Virus record (IMG/VR): IMGVR_UViG_3300006754_004062
Span: 1 to 20,122 of that record
DNA length: 20,122 nt
Direction: 5' to 3' (one strand)
Origin: a virus
Shown piece by piece: positions 4,472-10,643 of the stretch (the first letter of the stretch is position 1; each line of letters opens with the position of its first letter). The notes beneath the pieces were generated by a model. It was not told the DNA's origin, made no database searches, and was given only the letters and a program-made list of their open reading frames with translations. The position numbers were made by a program, and so were the translations under genes.

Positions 4472-5587
4472 ATGTCAAAATATGCTGAAAAAGCGTATGA
4501 TACATCTCTCGTGGATAAGGCGTTCGCTAAATTACAGAAGCTTAATAGAAACGCAACCACTCTAGAAGAAAATACACTGAGTAATGTAACTGAATGGGTT
4601 GATACTGGATGCTTAGTATTAAATTCTATTTTATCTGGTTCACTATATGGTGGTGTTCCCAAAGGAAGAATAACAATTTTTGCTGGAGAACCTCAATGTG
4701 GTAAAACTTTTATTTTAAATAAAATTCTTGCCAAAGCTCAAAAAAAAGGAATGGTACCTGTAATATTTGATACTGAGGTTGCTATTGAAAAAGAAGGAGC
4801 TGAAAACGTAGGTCTTGATGTTTCAAATGTAAAATATGTTCCGGTGGATACTGTTGAAAACTGTCGTAATCAACTCGTTACATTTTTAGACGGAGTTGAA
4901 GAAGAACCAAAACTTCACGGAAAATTTATTATATCGATTGATTCTCTTGGAAATTTAGCATCCTCAAAAGAAATTGCTGATGCTGAGGCTAATAAGGGAG
5001 CCATGGACATGGGACTCCGGGCTAAGCAGCTTAAATCCATGATGCGTATTATTACATATAAGGCTGCCGTAACTGGCACAACCATTATATGTAGTAATCA
5101 CACATATGCTGATCCTGGTGCACTCCATCCTACCTTAGTCAAGCAACAAGCTGGTGGTTCGGGTCCTATGTACATGGCTTCTTTATTAGTCCAAATGGCC
5201 GCAAAGAAAGAAAGAACAGATGCTTCAAATGACAGCGACGAAGCATTAACAGAAAGTAGAAATTACTCAGGAGTTACTCTTCGAATGCTTACTGTAAAAA
5301 ATAGATTCATACCAGCGTTTTTACAAGCAGAAGCATATTTAAATTTCAAAACCGGATTAGAAAAATATTCTGGCTTAAAAGATGTAGCTGTTGCTCATAA
5401 CATTATTCAACAAAATGGCTCTACATATAGCATGGGAGATAAAAAATTAGGATATTATAAAAATTGGCGCAACGATGAAAAACTGTGGAATTCTATCTTA
5501 CCTAATATAGAATCATCTATAAATGAAAAATACCGATATGGTAAATCATTAGATGAAACTGCTATATTAGAGCAACAAGATGAGTAA
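4472..5587 (+). CDS. uvsX: UvsX RecA-like recombinase
   Basis: A 371-residue strand-exchange protein (T4 UvsX has 391). Walker A is GEPQCGKT (72-79). Walker B is FIISID followed by SLGNLAS (152-163), a segment also found in T4 UvsX. NHTYADPG (209-216) corresponds to the NHTYE region, and a GGSGPMY segment follows the putative DNA-binding loop. It forms filaments on gp32-coated single strands and drives recombination-dependent replication with gp46/47 and gp41. The C-terminus is acidic and Gln-rich. This is one of the few genes with a clear Shine-Dalgarno-like sequence (GAGGAA before the ATG). It overlaps the following glycosyltransferase by 8 bases, which suggests translational coupling. Confidence 0.96.
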   Translation: MSKYAEKAYDTSLVDKAFAKLQKLNRNATTLEENTLSNVTEWVDTGCLVLNSILSGSLYGGVPKGRITIFAGEPQCGKTFILNKILAKAQKKGMVPVIFDTEVAIEKEGAENVGLDVSNVKYVPVDTVENCRNQLVTFLDGVEEEPKLHGKFIISIDSLGNLASSKEIADAEANKGAMDMGLRAKQLKSMMRIITYKAAVTGTTIICSNHTYADPGALHPTLVKQQAGGSGPMYMASLLVQMAAKKERTDASNDSDEALTESRNYSGVTLRMLTVKNRFIPAFLQAEAYLNFKTGLEKYSGLKDVAVAHNIIQQNGSTYSMGDKKLGYYKNWRNDEKLWNSILPNIESSINEKYRYGKSLDETAILEQQDE

Positions 5588-6368
5588 AATAAATATCTGT
5601 TTTTGTAGTGATAAGAAATTAATTGACTATATACCGGTTGTAATAAATTCAATTATAAGCAAAAACAAAAAACATGAAATCGCGGTTCATCTTATTCATA
5701 ATATACAAAATAGAAGTAGAATAGATAAGTTAAATAAATGGGTTTCACATTTTGATAACTTCTCATTTCAAGAGTATTTTAAAAAATGGAGTCGTGAGTA
5801 TACAGGATTAGATCATGTCTCTGAAGCGACAATGTTAAGATTGTTTATACCAGAACTTATCAATGAAGATAAAATTTTATACTTAGATATTGATATAATT
5901 GTAAATTTAGATTTAATGGAAATTTACAAAATAGATACAAAAGATATCGGTATTGCATTGAAACCGTGTCCTTCAGATAAAGTAGTAGATAATATAAGCA
6001 TTATACGATATAAAAATAAAAAACTGTCAGGAAACTGCGGAATTATAATGATGAATTTAGAGGTGCTCCGAAAAAATAAATTTACTCAAACATGTTTAGA
6101 GTTACATAAGAAAAATGACGACAGACATGATCAATGGATAATAAATGAATATTGCCAGGGAAATTATATAGAGCTCGAGCCAAGGTTTAATGTTTATCAT
6201 CGCCGGGATAGTCATTTAATGGAACAACACGAAGATTATCTTTTACATTATAATGAGCACGTGAAGCCTTATCATACAAAAAGAGATTGCGGTAAATACC
6301 AATACCTATGGGATGAGCAATATAAAAAATTACAACCTAAAACTATTAAGTTAGAATTTAATGAGTAA
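5580..6368 (+). CDS. GT8-family glycosyltransferase (GT-A fold)
   Basis: A 262-residue retaining glycosyltransferase resembling LgtC and glycogenin-type GT8 enzymes. The N-terminus NICFCSD starts the nucleotide-binding fold. The metal-binding DxD motif is YLDIDIIVNLD (D103, D105). GNCGIIMMNL (151-160) matches the conserved GT8 segment after DxD. DQWIINEY (184-191) and the HYNEHVKPYH signature (223-232) complete the family pattern. Family members transfer glucose or galactose from UDP-sugars; donor and acceptor here are unknown. No membrane segment is seen. It overlaps uvsX by 8 bases and queC by 8, so it is locked into the same transcript as the deazaguanine cassette. Confidence 0.85.
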   Translation: MSKINICFCSDKKLIDYIPVVINSIISKNKKHEIAVHLIHNIQNRSRIDKLNKWVSHFDNFSFQEYFKKWSREYTGLDHVSEATMLRLFIPELINEDKILYLDIDIIVNLDLMEIYKIDTKDIGIALKPCPSDKVVDNISIIRYKNKKLSGNCGIIMMNLEVLRKNKFTQTCLELHKKNDDRHDQWIINEYCQGNYIELEPRFNVYHRRDSHLMEQHEDYLLHYNEHVKPYHTKRDCGKYQYLWDEQYKKLQPKTIKLEFNE

Positions 6369-7047
6369 AGTAGTAGTACCAATTTCAGGTGGTTTAGATA
6401 GTTCTCTATTATTAAATATTGCAGACTTTCAAAAAGATGAAATTTATGCAATAAGCTATAATTATGGTCAAAAACACGAGAAAGAACTTTTATATGCCGA
6501 AAAGCAAATACAATATTATAACACTATTAAAGATCACAAAATAATTGATCTTAAATTCCTTAAAACTATTGCTCCTACCTCCTCTCTTACAAATGATAAT
6601 ATATCAGTTGCGCAAGCGCGGAATGTTCTAGGTGATGCTCAAACAGTAAATTATGTTCCTTTTAGAAATATGCTAATGTTATCTATTGCATGTTCATATG
6701 CTGAAGCAGTAGGTGCTAATACTGTTTTTCATGGAGCAGCCTTGGTTGATAGTCAAGCTGGGTATTGGGATGGTAGTATTGAATTTCTTAATAGTATAAA
6801 CGAATTAACCTCTCTTAATAGAAAAAATAGAATTGAAATAGAAGCTCCATTAATTGATTTATCAAAAGCAGAAATTATAAAATTAGGAATAGATAATTGT
6901 CTTCATTTCGAAGACACTTGGACTTGTTACGAAGGTAAAGATAAAGCTTGTGGTTATTGTACCGCATGTAGTTCTCGTATACAAGGATTTTTAGACAACA
7001 AAATGAAAGACCCAATAGAATATGAGCGAACAGACATTCCATGGTGA
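6361..7047 (+). CDS. queC: QueC-like 7-cyano-7-deazaguanine synthase
   Basis: QueC converts 7-carboxy-7-deazaguanine to preQ0 using ATP and ammonia. This 228-residue protein has full family length. The PP-loop is SGGLDSS (9-15), with NYGQKHEKEL following at ~34-43 and VPFRNMLMLSIA at 99-110. The zinc site is complete: C189, C197, C200 and C203 in TWTCYEGKDKACGYCTAC. In phages queC feeds 7-deazaguanine DNA modification, where DpdA inserts the base; no dpdA, folE, queD or queE is in this window, so the pathway must continue elsewhere or rely on the host. It overlaps the GMP reductase homologue by 26 bases. A tRNA queuosine role is possible but less likely for a phage replication locus. Confidence 0.92.
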   Translation: MSKVVVPISGGLDSSLLLNIADFQKDEIYAISYNYGQKHEKELLYAEKQIQYYNTIKDHKIIDLKFLKTIAPTSSLTNDNISVAQARNVLGDAQTVNYVPFRNMLMLSIACSYAEAVGANTVFHGAALVDSQAGYWDGSIEFLNSINELTSLNRKNRIEIEAPLIDLSKAEIIKLGIDNCLHFEDTWTCYEGKDKACGYCTACSSRIQGFLDNKMKDPIEYERTDIPW

Positions 7048-7978
7048 ACTAGATTATTCCGATGTACTTTTAGTACCGAAGTATAGTTTTTTAGGCTCTA
7101 GAAAAGAAGCCGATACAACATTTAAATTAGGTAAATGGAAATTTTCATTACCAATTGTTCCATCTAATATGGAAACAGTAATAAATCTCAATTTATGCCA
7201 ACAATTAGATCGAGATAATTATTTTTATATAAAGCACCGGTTTCAAGATATGTTTGAAACAGTACGAAAACTTAATGACTACCGTTGTAAATGTGTGAGT
7301 GTTAGTATAGGAGTAAATGAAGAGTCGTATCAATATTTACAATCAATTATAGATAATAATTATAAAATTGACATTATCACAATTGACGTAGCTCACGGTC
7401 ACCATGTTAAAGTCACAGCAATGATAAAATACATTAAAAAATATTTTGAAAAAGATATAATAATTATTGCTGGTAACGTAGGTACAGCTGAAGGATTTAA
7501 GCAATTACAAGACTCTGGAGCAGATGTAGTTAAAGTCGGTATCGGGTCTGGAGTTATATGTACAACTAGATTTAAAACAGGGTTCGGAACACCTATGTTC
7601 TCAACATTACTTAAAATTGCTCCACATAAAAAATCAGCTAAGATTATGGCTGATGGAGGCTGTAAGCATTTTGGTGATATTGCAAAGGCATTAGTAGCAG
7701 GTGCTGATTGTGTTATGTCTGGTTCTTTTTTTGCGCCATGTGCAGATTCACCTGCGAAAGTCGTTCGAGGTGCAAAAGAATATTACGGCAGTACCTCATA
7801 TAAACAAAAAGGAGATAGATTACACTTTGTTGAAGGTAAACAAGTCGACTTAGAGCTTGCACCAGAATACGAAGTACGACTACAAGAAATACAACAAGCA
7901 CTTAGAAGCTCTATTTCTTATGCAGGTGGTAAAGATTTAAGTTGCTTTTCGGATGTAAAGTTCATACAATTAAAGTGA
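7022..7978 (+). CDS. guaC: GMP reductase homologue (IMPDH/GMPR family)
   Basis: A 318-residue TIM-barrel enzyme without the CBS domains of typical IMP dehydrogenases. GMP reductase converts GMP to IMP and ammonia with NADPH. The barrel begins with DYSDVLLVP; IVPSNMETV, AGNVGTAEG and MADGGCKHFGDIAKALVAGAD are the usual family segments. The catalytic loop is GIGSGVICTTR, with C180 and T182 in the positions of the GMPR cysteine and threonine. E271 in VEGK matches the GMPR catalytic glutamate region, and the tail (IQQALRSSISYAGGKDL) also looks like GMPR. All key residues appear intact, so it should be catalytically competent, but the true substrate could be another purine or a deazapurine. It lies between queC (26-base overlap) and a glutamine amidotransferase (1-base gap), an arrangement I do not recognise. 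Confidence 0.83.
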   Translation: MSEQTFHGELDYSDVLLVPKYSFLGSRKEADTTFKLGKWKFSLPIVPSNMETVINLNLCQQLDRDNYFYIKHRFQDMFETVRKLNDYRCKCVSVSIGVNEESYQYLQSIIDNNYKIDIITIDVAHGHHVKVTAMIKYIKKYFEKDIIIIAGNVGTAEGFKQLQDSGADVVKVGIGSGVICTTRFKTGFGTPMFSTLLKIAPHKKSAKIMADGGCKHFGDIAKALVAGADCVMSGSFFAPCADSPAKVVRGAKEYYGSTSYKQKGDRLHFVEGKQVDLELAPEYEVRLQEIQQALRSSISYAGGKDLSCFSDVKFIQLK

Positions 7979-7979
7979 T

Positions 7980-8618
7980 ATGTGTGGAATCTTTGGGTCA
8001 ACTGATGTTAAAACTTTTAGAGAATTATATACAAAAAACACCGAAAGAGGTAATTTTGTACGCAGTATAACAATGGTGTTCCCTGGAGGGATGAAAGATA
8101 ACATTCAGGTAGCAATAAAACACGAACAAGATTTCGATAAACCTATAAAAGAAAATCCTTTTTGTATATATTATCTAGGGCACGTACAATCTCCTACATC
8201 AAAAATTAGAACATTCAATACTGATACCTCTCACCCATTTATATATAAAAATACATATTTAGCGCATAACGGAGTATTACAAAATTTTAATGAATTAACA
8301 GAAAAATATGAACTTAAAGGTAAAGCAAATAAGGTAGATAGTAGTGTAATATTACCGTTGATATATATGTCTGGTATTAAAAATGCACTATCAGAGCTTA
8401 AAGGTACATTTGGATGTTGGATGTATGAGCCAAACATGGGCAGATTACAGGTTTTTAGATCTGGATCTACATTATTTACAGATGATACGTCATTTAGTTC
8501 AGCACAAATACCTGACTGGAAATCTGCGACGGAAGGAACAATATATGAATTTAATTTTAGTAAAAATAAATTTTTAGAAAAACAAAAATTTGAATTAAAT
8601 TCTCCATTCTTTATATGA
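7980..8618 (+). CDS. Class II glutamine amidotransferase, stand-alone
   Basis: A 212-residue Ntn-hydrolase domain. Cys2 right after the initiator Met is the nucleophile (MCGIFG). AHNGVLQNF (95-103) supplies the oxyanion Asn/Gly pair, and VDSS (119-122) carries the substrate-binding Asp. LGHVQSPTS (66-74) is the GHxR segment, but glutamine replaces the usual arginine that holds the glutamine substrate. The protein ends after the amidotransferase domain, so it would supply ammonia to a partner. The best candidate is QueC, since Gat-QueC fusions are known from archaea and some phages for archaeosine-type products. It follows the GMPR homologue by 1 base and overlaps the next glycosyltransferase by 4 (ATGA). 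Confidence 0.82.
   Translation: MCGIFGSTDVKTFRELYTKNTERGNFVRSITMVFPGGMKDNIQVAIKHEQDFDKPIKENPFCIYYLGHVQSPTSKIRTFNTDTSHPFIYKNTYLAHNGVLQNFNELTEKYELKGKANKVDSSVILPLIYMSGIKNALSELKGTFGCWMYEPNMGRLQVFRSGSTLFTDDTSFSSAQIPDWKSATEGTIYEFNFSKNKFLEKQKFELNSPFFI
8036..8054. repeat. 19-base direct repeat, copy 1
   Basis: The sequence aaacaccgaaagaggtaat lies in the amidotransferase gene. It recurs exactly 1000 bases downstream in the following gene but in another reading frame (here KNTERGN, there QTPKEVI). See the second copy. Confidence 0.5.
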
Positions 8619-9316
8619 AAACTTTAATAGCAGTTGCAACTCAATCTGATGAATCTAGTTTTAAAACTACAAGATTATCTAAAAGTTTAACTCATCACGA
8701 AGAAAACACTATAACTACTTTTGACTTACAACCTACGTATAAAAACACCAGTGGGTTGTGTGCCGTTTATAACAACTACCTCATCCCGGAAAATTTAAAA
8801 AAATATGATTGTATTTTATTCGTACACGATGATATATTTATTGATAGTATAAACTTCTTAGTAGAAATTCGTAATTTATTTAAGAAAGGATTTGATGTAG
8901 TCGGTCTTGCTGGTGGTAGCAAATTACAAGTCATAAAACCGTGTTTATGGCATTTATTATGTAAGAGAGAAACCTTGTCTGGAATAGTATCACATTATCA
9001 TAATAATACAGACTATAGTCCTACAATCTTTGGACAAACACCGAAAGAGGTAATATTATTAGATGGTGTATTTTTAGCTGTCCGAACTAAATCAATCGCA
9101 AAACAAAAAATAAAATTTGATACTAAAATAAAAGGATTTCATCATTATGATTTAAAGTTTTGTTTAGATTGTCATTTAGCTGGGTTGCGCTTAACTACTG
9201 CCCCTATTCATGTTGTTCACGAATCACCTGGTCTAACTAACCACACAGAAGAGTATAGCAAATCAGAAGACTACTTCTATAATACTCTGTTAGAACATGC
9301 TAACAAACGAAAGTAA
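8615..9316 (+). CDS. Glycosyltransferase, StrF-like / family 2-like GT-A domain
   Basis: A 233-residue protein resembling the StrF-domain glycosyltransferases (Pfam Glyco_tranf_2_5 type). CILFVHDDIFID (HDD at 71-73) corresponds to the DxD metal site. DVVGLAGGS (94-102) and LLDGVFLAVR are typical family segments, and HHYDLKFCLDCHLAGLRL followed by PIHVVHES forms the C-terminal active-site region. No membrane segment. Donor and acceptor are unknown. It overlaps the amidotransferase by 4 bases and gp41 by 20, so expression is coupled to both. It is the third glycosyltransferase of the window and not similar in pattern to the other two. Confidence 0.75.
   Translation: MKTLIAVATQSDESSFKTTRLSKSLTHHEENTITTFDLQPTYKNTSGLCAVYNNYLIPENLKKYDCILFVHDDIFIDSINFLVEIRNLFKKGFDVVGLAGGSKLQVIKPCLWHLLCKRETLSGIVSHYHNNTDYSPTIFGQTPKEVILLDGVFLAVRTKSIAKQKIKFDTKIKGFHHYDLKFCLDCHLAGLRLTTAPIHVVHESPGLTNHTEEYSKSEDYFYNTLLEHANKRK
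9036..9054. repeat. 19-base direct repeat, copy 2
   Basis: Exact second copy of the 19-base sequence found in the amidotransferase gene, read in a different frame inside the StrF-like glycosyltransferase gene. A chance match of this length is unlikely but not impossible in an AT-rich 20 kb window. Confidence 0.5.
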
Positions 9317-10643
9317 TTATTTAGACATAGATTTAGAATATTTAGAAAAGGTAGTTTTTAAAAACTGCCTTGAAGATGAAATGTATCTAAACTCTATTAT
9401 TGATAATCTTAATTATAAATTCTTCAAAAATAAAGACTTTCAGCAAATAGTTAAAATAATACAGGCTCTATATAAAAGAAATAACAGACGACCGACAAAT
9501 ACAGAATTAGAAATATATTTAAATACCTCCGAGCTTAAAGGTCATTATCAAGCAAGTAAGAAAATTATTGACACTTTAGAAGTAGATTTATCAAACGATA
9601 TTTTATACTCTTATACAGAAAAGTTCTTGCAAGAGCAAGCTGTATTTAATACATTTTTAGAAATCGTTGATAATAAAGAGAGAGATGTAAAAAGTATTCA
9701 TGACAAATTTTCAAAAGCATGTAATATTTCTCTCACTACAAACATAGGTCATAATTATTTTAAAGATGTTGAGCAACATATTATTGATTTAACAACCCGC
9801 GAAGAAACGATCAAAACCGGTTGGGATTGGTTAGATACTAGGTTAGGAGGAGGGTTTTTAGAGCTAGGACGTAGTATGTATATTTTTGCTGGACCGACAA
9901 ATGTAGGTAAATCTATATTTTTAAGTAATATAGCAAGTAATGCCGCTGCTGCCGATAAAAATGTATTAGTAGTTTCTCTTGAGATGTCTGAAATGATTTA
10001 TTGTAAGAGAATTACATCAAAACTTACAGGCCTTCCGATAAATCATTTAGATGAACATATAGAAACATTAAAAGAAAAAGTAGGGAAGTTTAAAATGACG
10101 CACCCTAGAGCAAATATAATAATTAAAGAATTTGCTCCTAGCTCCATTACACCGCCGCAACTTGAAGGGTTTATTAAGAAATTAATTAATAAGAAATTTA
10201 AACCTGATATTATAGTACTAGATTATTTAAATCTCTTAGCAAGTACATACGGTAATAATTCATATGAACGTGTTAAAAGTATTTCCGAACAAGTAAGAGC
10301 AATGTCATATACTTTTGAATGTCCAATTATATCTGCGACACAAGTAAATAGAACAGGGTATGGTAATACTACTAGTGCTCCTGGATTAGAGGCTATTGGA
10401 GAAAGTTATGGATTAGGAGCAACAGCAGATGTTATTGTAAGTATTTGGAGGACAGAAGAAGATGAAGAAGATAATGCGCTACATATGGGCATTATTAAAA
10501 ATAGATTTGGTTCTAATACAGGTAGTACTCGAATCTCTATAGATTACAATACTCTTACTCTTATGGAGAACAATGATTTAAACATTAATGAAGATGTTAA
10601 TACTGCGGAAAATGACGCTGTACAATTCGGAAGAGTAATGTAA
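9297..10643 (+). CDS. 41: gp41 replicative DNA helicase (DnaB-like)
   Basis: A 448-residue hexameric 5'-3' helicase of the primosome (T4 gp41 has 475). Residues 1-140 form the helical N-terminal domain that interacts with primase. The RecA-like ATPase follows: TGWDWLDTRLGGG (174-186), Walker A GPTNVGKS (199-206), the VSLEMSEM segment of DnaB family motif H1a, Walker B DIIVLDYLNL, and SATQVNRTG (motif H3). An acidic tail follows. The ATG lies inside the previous gene (20-base overlap), and the N-terminus from there keeps the full helical domain. It works with gp61 (17931), gp32 and gp43, all encoded nearby. Confidence 0.95.
   Translation: MLTNESNYLDIDLEYLEKVVFKNCLEDEMYLNSIIDNLNYKFFKNKDFQQIVKIIQALYKRNNRRPTNTELEIYLNTSELKGHYQASKKIIDTLEVDLSNDILYSYTEKFLQEQAVFNTFLEIVDNKERDVKSIHDKFSKACNISLTTNIGHNYFKDVEQHIIDLTTREETIKTGWDWLDTRLGGGFLELGRSMYIFAGPTNVGKSIFLSNIASNAAAADKNVLVVSLEMSEMIYCKRITSKLTGLPINHLDEHIETLKEKVGKFKMTHPRANIIIKEFAPSSITPPQLEGFIKKLINKKFKPDIIVLDYLNLLASTYGNNSYERVKSISEQVRAMSYTFECPIISATQVNRTGYGNTTSAPGLEAIGESYGLGATADVIVSIWRTEEDEEDNALHMGIIKNRFGSNTGSTRISIDYNTLTLMENNDLNINEDVNTAENDAVQFGRVM

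Follow-up and report, generated by a model that had tools for sequence, protein, structure and literature searches.

The window analyzed here is the whole of virus record IMGVR_UViG_3300006754_004062, a stretch of 20,122 bases with a base composition of 31% GC and, by blastn, no match to a cultured phage; because the window is the entire record, no sequence past its ends can be read from the same genome. It carries a trio of adjoining genes that encode QueC, the synthase of 7-cyano-7-deazaguanine (preQ0), a GMP reductase (GMPR), and a stand-alone class II glutamine amidotransferase (GAT). What might a GMP reductase be doing between QueC and an amidotransferase? The explanation that we consider probable overall is that the trio is the preQ0-making portion of a pathway for the replacement of guanine in phage DNA by a 7-deazaguanine, with GMPR as a guanine-recycling branch. 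The gene coordinates given by the original prediction, as well as the 26-base overlap and the 1-base gap that separates GMPR from GAT, proved exact when checked against the open reading frames (ORFs) (Table 1).

Table 1. The trio and its neighbors in the window
Feature	Position	Strand	Size and basis
queC, 7-cyano-7-deazaguanine (preQ0) synthase	6361..7047	+	228 aa; PF06508, TIGR00364, PP-loop/YxQxHxxE/VPxRN/zinc Cys
GMP reductase (GMPR), type 2 (Bacillus-type GuaC)	7022..7978	+	318 aa; PF00478, NF003966, C180/T182/E271, 1ypf, virus-specific clade
Stand-alone class II glutamine amidotransferase (GAT)	7980..8618	+	212 aa; PF13522/PF13537; Cys2, HNG, D120
queC/GMPR reading-frame overlap, 26 bases	7022..7047	+	ORF coordinates
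Glycosyltransferase overlapping GAT	8615..9316	+	PF13712 8e-12; synteny
GT8-type glycosyltransferase	5580..6368	+	PF01501 1e-29
RecA/UvsX-type recombinase, left syntenic anchor of the queC-GAT slot	4472..5587	+	position, family resemblance, synteny
DnaB-type replicative helicase, right syntenic anchor	9297..10643	+	position, family resemblance, synteny

The identity of QueC is well founded. The protein matches PF06508 at 3e-58 and TIGR00364 with 172.5 bits, above the cut-off of 150.3, and its motifs (SGGLDS at residues 9–14, Y35-G-Q-K-H-E-K-E42, VPFRN at 99–103, and the cysteines 189, 197, 200 and 203) bear out the complete PP-loop and zinc cysteines that had been read from the sequence at the outset. 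Three of the canonical QueC motifs of PMC13329287 are present; the departures are that YPDC is replaced by YWDG and that the zinc cysteines are spaced C(x)7, not C(x)8. Both YxQxHxxE and VPxRN, which are lost in QatC, are kept. The motifs of Cap9 are similar to those of the window's QueC, and it is by neighborhood only that Cap9 identity is excluded. Between the window (6361–7047) and a close relative (L003:9337–10041), queC has a dS of ~0.93, compared with 0.22–0.37 for its neighbors GMPR, GAT and RecA, and this excess divergence suggests an exchange of queC by recombination. A second, divergent member of the QueC family is found in Vibrio phage 1.081.O (L037, record positions 155312–155881), with one in-frame TAG within the match.

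The reductase matches PF00478 at 7e-58, and its best curated model is that for type 2 enzymes, NF003966, with 306.7 bits against a cut-off of 344. The catalytic residues on which it was first called an intact homologue are confirmed and are conserved among 84 other viral GMPRs (C180 in 84/84, T182 in 83/84, E271 in 84/84). Its nearest solved structure is the GMP reductase of B. anthracis, 1ypf, its catalytic and substrate-loop residues agree with those of cellular GMP reductases, and in a tree it falls in a virus-specific clade. With a dN/dS of ~0.12 between the window and L003, the gene is under purifying selection.

GAT matches PF13522/PF13537, and its Cys2, R23, H96-N97-G98 and D120 are invariant in a comparison with the QueC-linked GATs of Vibrio phages. 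A scan with GAT alone gave 80 loci, namely 26 QueC-GMPR-GAT, 28 QueC-GAT, 19 GMPR-GAT (these start at a contig edge, such that QueC lies off the contig), 5 truncated and 2 other. GAT is thus nearly always coupled to QueC, as the proposed association of the two would have it, and we consider it likely that GAT supplies ammonia to QueC. In the window and its relatives the two are separate ORFs, not a Gat-QueC fusion, and a separate pair is also found in KVP40-like Vibrio phages. The earlier remark that no described system has exactly this trio therefore holds for the trio, which is new, but not for the QueC-GAT pair, which was already present in the annotated genomes of those Vibrio phages.

To what pathway does the trio belong? 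A scan with GMPR found the same gene order throughout a marine T4-like lineage, with GMPR identities of 61–100%, queC/GMPR overlaps of 26–41 bases and gaps of 1–4 bases; this recurrence with conserved junctions, together with the low dN/dS of GMPR, argues that the arrangement is not due to chance. Five contigs of the lineage are 115–201 kb long (G002, G003, G008, G009 and G015), and all five carry FolE, QueD and QueE. Additionally, G003, G008 and G009 have a second cassette that consists of a short dpdA-type gene, a formyltransferase, a small phrog_1485-type protein, an AAA_28 kinase and QueF. G002, whose GMPR is 91% identical to the window's, and G015 break off at a common point within QueF, which places the remainder of the cassette beyond the end of the contig. 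The two ends (L021 and L310, from one metagenome) both stop after the same 123 bases of QueF, and the common break is probably an assembly break at a shared sequence. The original prediction had proposed a search of relatives for folE, queD, queE and dpdA: these genes are found on the long contigs, and the genes of the trio remain linked there. Since three of the long relatives carry FolE, QueD, QueE, QueF, a formyltransferase and a transglycosylase with the tRNA-guanine transglycosylase (TGT) fold, we regard the trio, with high confidence, as part of a phage 7-deazaguanine DNA-modification system.

The transglycosylase itself is easily overlooked. The TGT model PF01702, which misses the short dpdA-type protein, detected no DpdA in the trio contigs, and phmmer with DpdA2 and the DpdA of phage 9g also missed it and found no DpdA2 in the two trio contigs tested. 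Replacement at the level of the nucleotide, as proposed for Campylobacter phages, was suggested by the PF01702 result and was dropped once the transglycosylase of the cassette had been found. An alignment of the short proteins has TGT-like blocks (LLDNSIFEL, IGAVQGK, HHLLG and DTSNP), and the top 50 matches in the PDB to a predicted structure (pLDDT 91.8) are all tRNA-guanine transglycosylases, with E values of ~1e-9 to 3e-8. The short dpdA type may be the DpdA3, a short DpdA associated with complete G replacement, and the formyltransferase the DpdN, that Cui et al. 2023 reportedly describe. Flavobacterium phage immuto encodes a homologue of the short protein that is annotated as a DNA guanine transglycosylase, and a further homologue is found in Campylobacter phages CP220 and CPt10. 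In the DNA of the latter two, dADG replaces 100% of the deoxyguanosine (dG), a result of Crippen et al. that PMC8306585 cites. Among 80 loci with the short dpdA (L129–L208), an AAA_28/NadR-like kinase lies beside it in 75 and QueF in 72, and the kinase is a core part of the cassette. The cassette, whose short DpdA goes unnoticed by the Pfam TGT model, occurs widely among phages of marine and fresh waters.

GMPR is an accessory to this system, and its placement in other lineages is informative. In freshwater contig G043, GMPR is missing from an otherwise preserved polymerase-RecA-QueC-GAT-glycosyltransferase-DnaB synteny and is found instead within the other cassette, in the order dpdA-formyltransferase (dpdN)-GMPR-small protein (nmad)-kinase-QueF. 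In a third lineage (L456, L459, L460 and L463), an E. coli-like type 1 GMPR, which is ~35% identical to the window's, fills the same slot between QueC and GAT; L456, L460 and L463 exceed the cut-offs of both NF003470 and TIGR01305, and L459 was typed by tree and length. The two types separate in the tree (in a second GMPR tree, the row L304_G055, for the GMPR of G055, was disregarded). GMPR has therefore been recruited repeatedly and independently, as two non-orthologous types, at the same QueC-GAT slot, and where QueC and GAT are separated by an insert of at least 600 bases, 23 of the 25 distinct loci hold GMPR. Outside the trio, dpdA lies within the fetched stretch at 25 of 53 GMPR loci, several of them near-copies, and QueC is found in none of the ten GMPR-bearing contigs or phages lacking the short dpdA that were tested.

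If GMPR handles guanine that is released by base exchange, a guanine phosphoribosyltransferase would be expected as its partner. Such a partner was first suggested by immuto, and the search for it was made afterwards. PF00156 is present in 10 of 12 contigs with both GMPR and dpdA versus 1 of 5 (a weak match) with GMPR and no dpdA, and a scan with the phosphoribosyltransferase only placed dpdA no more than 10 kb away in 28 of 80 loci, counts that take in related sequences and do not represent independent events. The PF00156 proteins of these contigs are of the Gpt/purine phosphoribosyltransferase type; the query had no match in a cultured phage, though immuto has a diverged copy. In other phage groups (L382, L386, L388, L390 and L393), divergent Gpt-type enzymes lie among FolE, QueD, QueE, QueC and a 9g-type DpdA, such that the link extends beyond the trio lineage.

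From the computed family memberships, synteny, co-occurrence, TGT fold, catalytic residues and GMPR recruitment, we infer an order of reactions, a transfer of ammonia, a final base and a recycling of guanine as follows. Phage FolE, QueD and QueE would make CDG from GTP; QueC would convert CDG to preQ0 with glutamine-derived ammonia from the stand-alone GAT; and QueF, found in relatives, would reduce preQ0 to preQ1, which the nearby formyltransferase may decorate. The TGT-fold, DpdA-type transglycosylase would then swap the base into DNA, with one free guanine out per swap. The freed guanine could be turned into GMP by a Gpt-type phosphoribosyltransferase, which many relatives encode themselves and which would otherwise be the host's, and GMPR could convert surplus GMP to IMP. 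Removal of guanine would take away a by-product able to re-enter the exchange, and a purine would be regained for adenine nucleotides in a 31% GC genome. Among the three roles initially floated for the reductase, the handling of GMP pools and guanine fits best, and action on a deazapurine is disfavored because the GMPR of the second recruiting lineage scores above the curated cut-offs set for its E. coli counterpart. From this chemistry and the co-occurrence of the genes, we give a role for GMPR in guanine/GMP recycling an even chance. Slightly more tentatively, base-exchanging phages may have gained a guanine-recycling arm repeatedly, as a Gpt-type phosphoribosyltransferase plus either type of GMPR, and this arm may drive replacement towards completion.

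Several points weigh against the recycling explanation. There is no dpdA in the 20-kb window, and the link to base exchange depends on relatives. The window's GMPR scores below the curated equivalog cut-offs. GMPR is further present in phages where no 7-deazaguanine genes are in view, and there are QueC-GAT sister contigs that lack it, G071 (119 kb), G072 (75 kb) and G073 (71 kb). Among 22 dpdA contigs that were picked irrespective of GMPR, most of them short, only 2 have the gene. The movement of GMPR among modules could be the drift of early phage genes. Finally, if the phosphoribosyltransferase returns guanine towards GTP, a diversion of GMP to IMP would compete with preQ0 production.

Some of these points are what one would expect if GMPR were an ordinary auxiliary purine gene, which takes GMP to IMP and AMP for an AT-rich phage and lies near queC by way of the early gene cluster, with QueC-GAT carrying out the modification alone. 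The 31% GC of the window and the sister phages that retain QueC-GAT without GMPR agree with this idea, as do phages that have GMPR without any QueC or dpdA (the cultured phages Cr30, Mel-JY01, TMA and RAS14 have neither QueC nor the short dpdA) and the marine contigs L112 and L117, in which GMPR lies between DnaB and DHH with no QueC in view. An indifferent purine gene would, however, have had to enter the dpdA-QueF cassette of another lineage, to be acquired once more, as a non-orthologous type, at the same QueC-GAT slot, and to account for nearly all of the large inserts at that slot, and we consider this alternative unlikely, albeit the strongest of those that compete with the recycling explanation.

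Could GMPR instead be a source of ammonia, with the deamination of GMP giving NH3 beside QueC as a second donor besides GAT? In two lineages its gene does lie between those of the ammonia user and the ammonia donor, with overlapping frames in the marine clade, but the role is already filled by GAT, GMP is a costly source of nitrogen with no sign of a channel, and the freshwater GMPR is distant from queC and GAT, all of which makes this improbable. Equally improbable is that QueC-GAT makes an amidinated, archaeosine-like base or carries out protein deazaguanylation in the manner of Cap9 or QatC, rather than making preQ0 for preQ1. The fused Gat-QueC of phage 9g does yield dG+ (PMC6884629), and YPDC is altered in the window's QueC; yet the latter retains the two motifs that QatC lacks, the window showed neither qat nor CBASS genes, although no defense-system search was made, and the same genomes hold QueF and a formyltransferase. 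Moreover, in Vibrio phage 6E351A, which has QueC-GAT and a QueF in its cluster, 15% of dG is dPreQ1 by mass spectrometry (PMC12028318). By analogy with this phage, and given QueF and the formyltransferase, the end product is probably preQ1 or formyl-preQ1 rather than archaeosine; thus, the earlier proposal of a deazaguanine base for phage DNA is supported as to the 7-deazaguanine system and not as to an archaeosine-type product. Least probable of all is that the substrate of GMPR is a deoxynucleotide or 7-deazaguanine nucleotide, from which, for instance, a 2-desamino (inosine-like) DNA base might be made, since, notwithstanding the Campylobacter phages known to have deoxyinosine DNA (PMC8306585) and the sub-threshold score of the window's enzyme, its catalytic and substrate-loop residues are those of cellular GMP reductases, the second lineage's enzymes exceed the GMP-reductase equivalog cut-offs, the deoxyinosine phage NCTC12673 has no PF00478 protein, and DpdA-type enzymes exchange bases, not nucleotides.

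The surroundings of the trio form a T4-like replication cluster, in the order B-family polymerase, RecA-type recombinase, GT8, queC, GMPR, GAT, second glycosyltransferase and DnaB-type helicase, with the polymerase, recombinase and helicase named by resemblance and position. The coordinates given at first stop at GAT, but the run of overlapping genes extends from the GT8 gene (5580) to the DnaB helicase (10643). The PF13712 glycosyltransferase comes after GAT in every lineage seen, marine and freshwater, and might glycosylate the modified base or serve surface sugars. The GT8 gene, between RecA and QueC, is confined to the window and its nearest relatives, L002 and L003; the rest of the trio lineage lacks it.

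Each DpdA-modified site would be expected to free one guanine, which would amount to a large purine flux if most guanines were modified, and we found no discussion of this flux; nor did the open-license literature yield any paper that connects GMP reductase with 7-deazaguanine. If GMPR and the Gpt-type enzyme do handle this flux, the system gains a branch for recycling its by-product, two new accessory markers become available for heavily modified phage genomes, and there is a testable route to higher modification levels in laboratory systems.

How does the trio lineage compare with what is known? Cellular GuaC of types 1 and 2 shares the catalytic Cys/Thr/Glu and the substrate loops with the window's GMPR, which, unlike it, belongs to a virus-specific clade, lies within phage gene clusters and scores below the type 2 equivalog cut-off. 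The Gat-QueC fusion of phage 9g and archaea also couples an amidotransferase to QueC, but as one protein with dG+ as product, whereas the window's lineage has separate genes and a genomic QueF. Immuto and CP220/CPt10 share with the trio relatives the homologous short transglycosylase and the adjoining AAA_28/NadR-like kinase, and immuto additionally has a formyltransferase, QueF, FolE, QueD, QueE and a Gpt-type phosphoribosyltransferase; a PF00478 protein is absent from immuto and CP220, and no GAT was seen beside QueC in the immuto, CP220 and CPt10 systems. The KVP40-like Vibrio phages (Schizotequatrovirus; nt-1 and 6E351A) have in common with the lineage FolE, QueC followed by a homologous stand-alone class II GAT, QueF and a DpdA. 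In the Vibrio phages GAT comes directly after QueC, and their DpdA is DpdA2, whereas the trio relatives use the shorter type. Two of the Vibrio phage genomes were tested for a GMP reductase and lacked it, and no formyltransferase cassette was seen in these phages. Relative to the known phage systems, then, the new element is GMPR.

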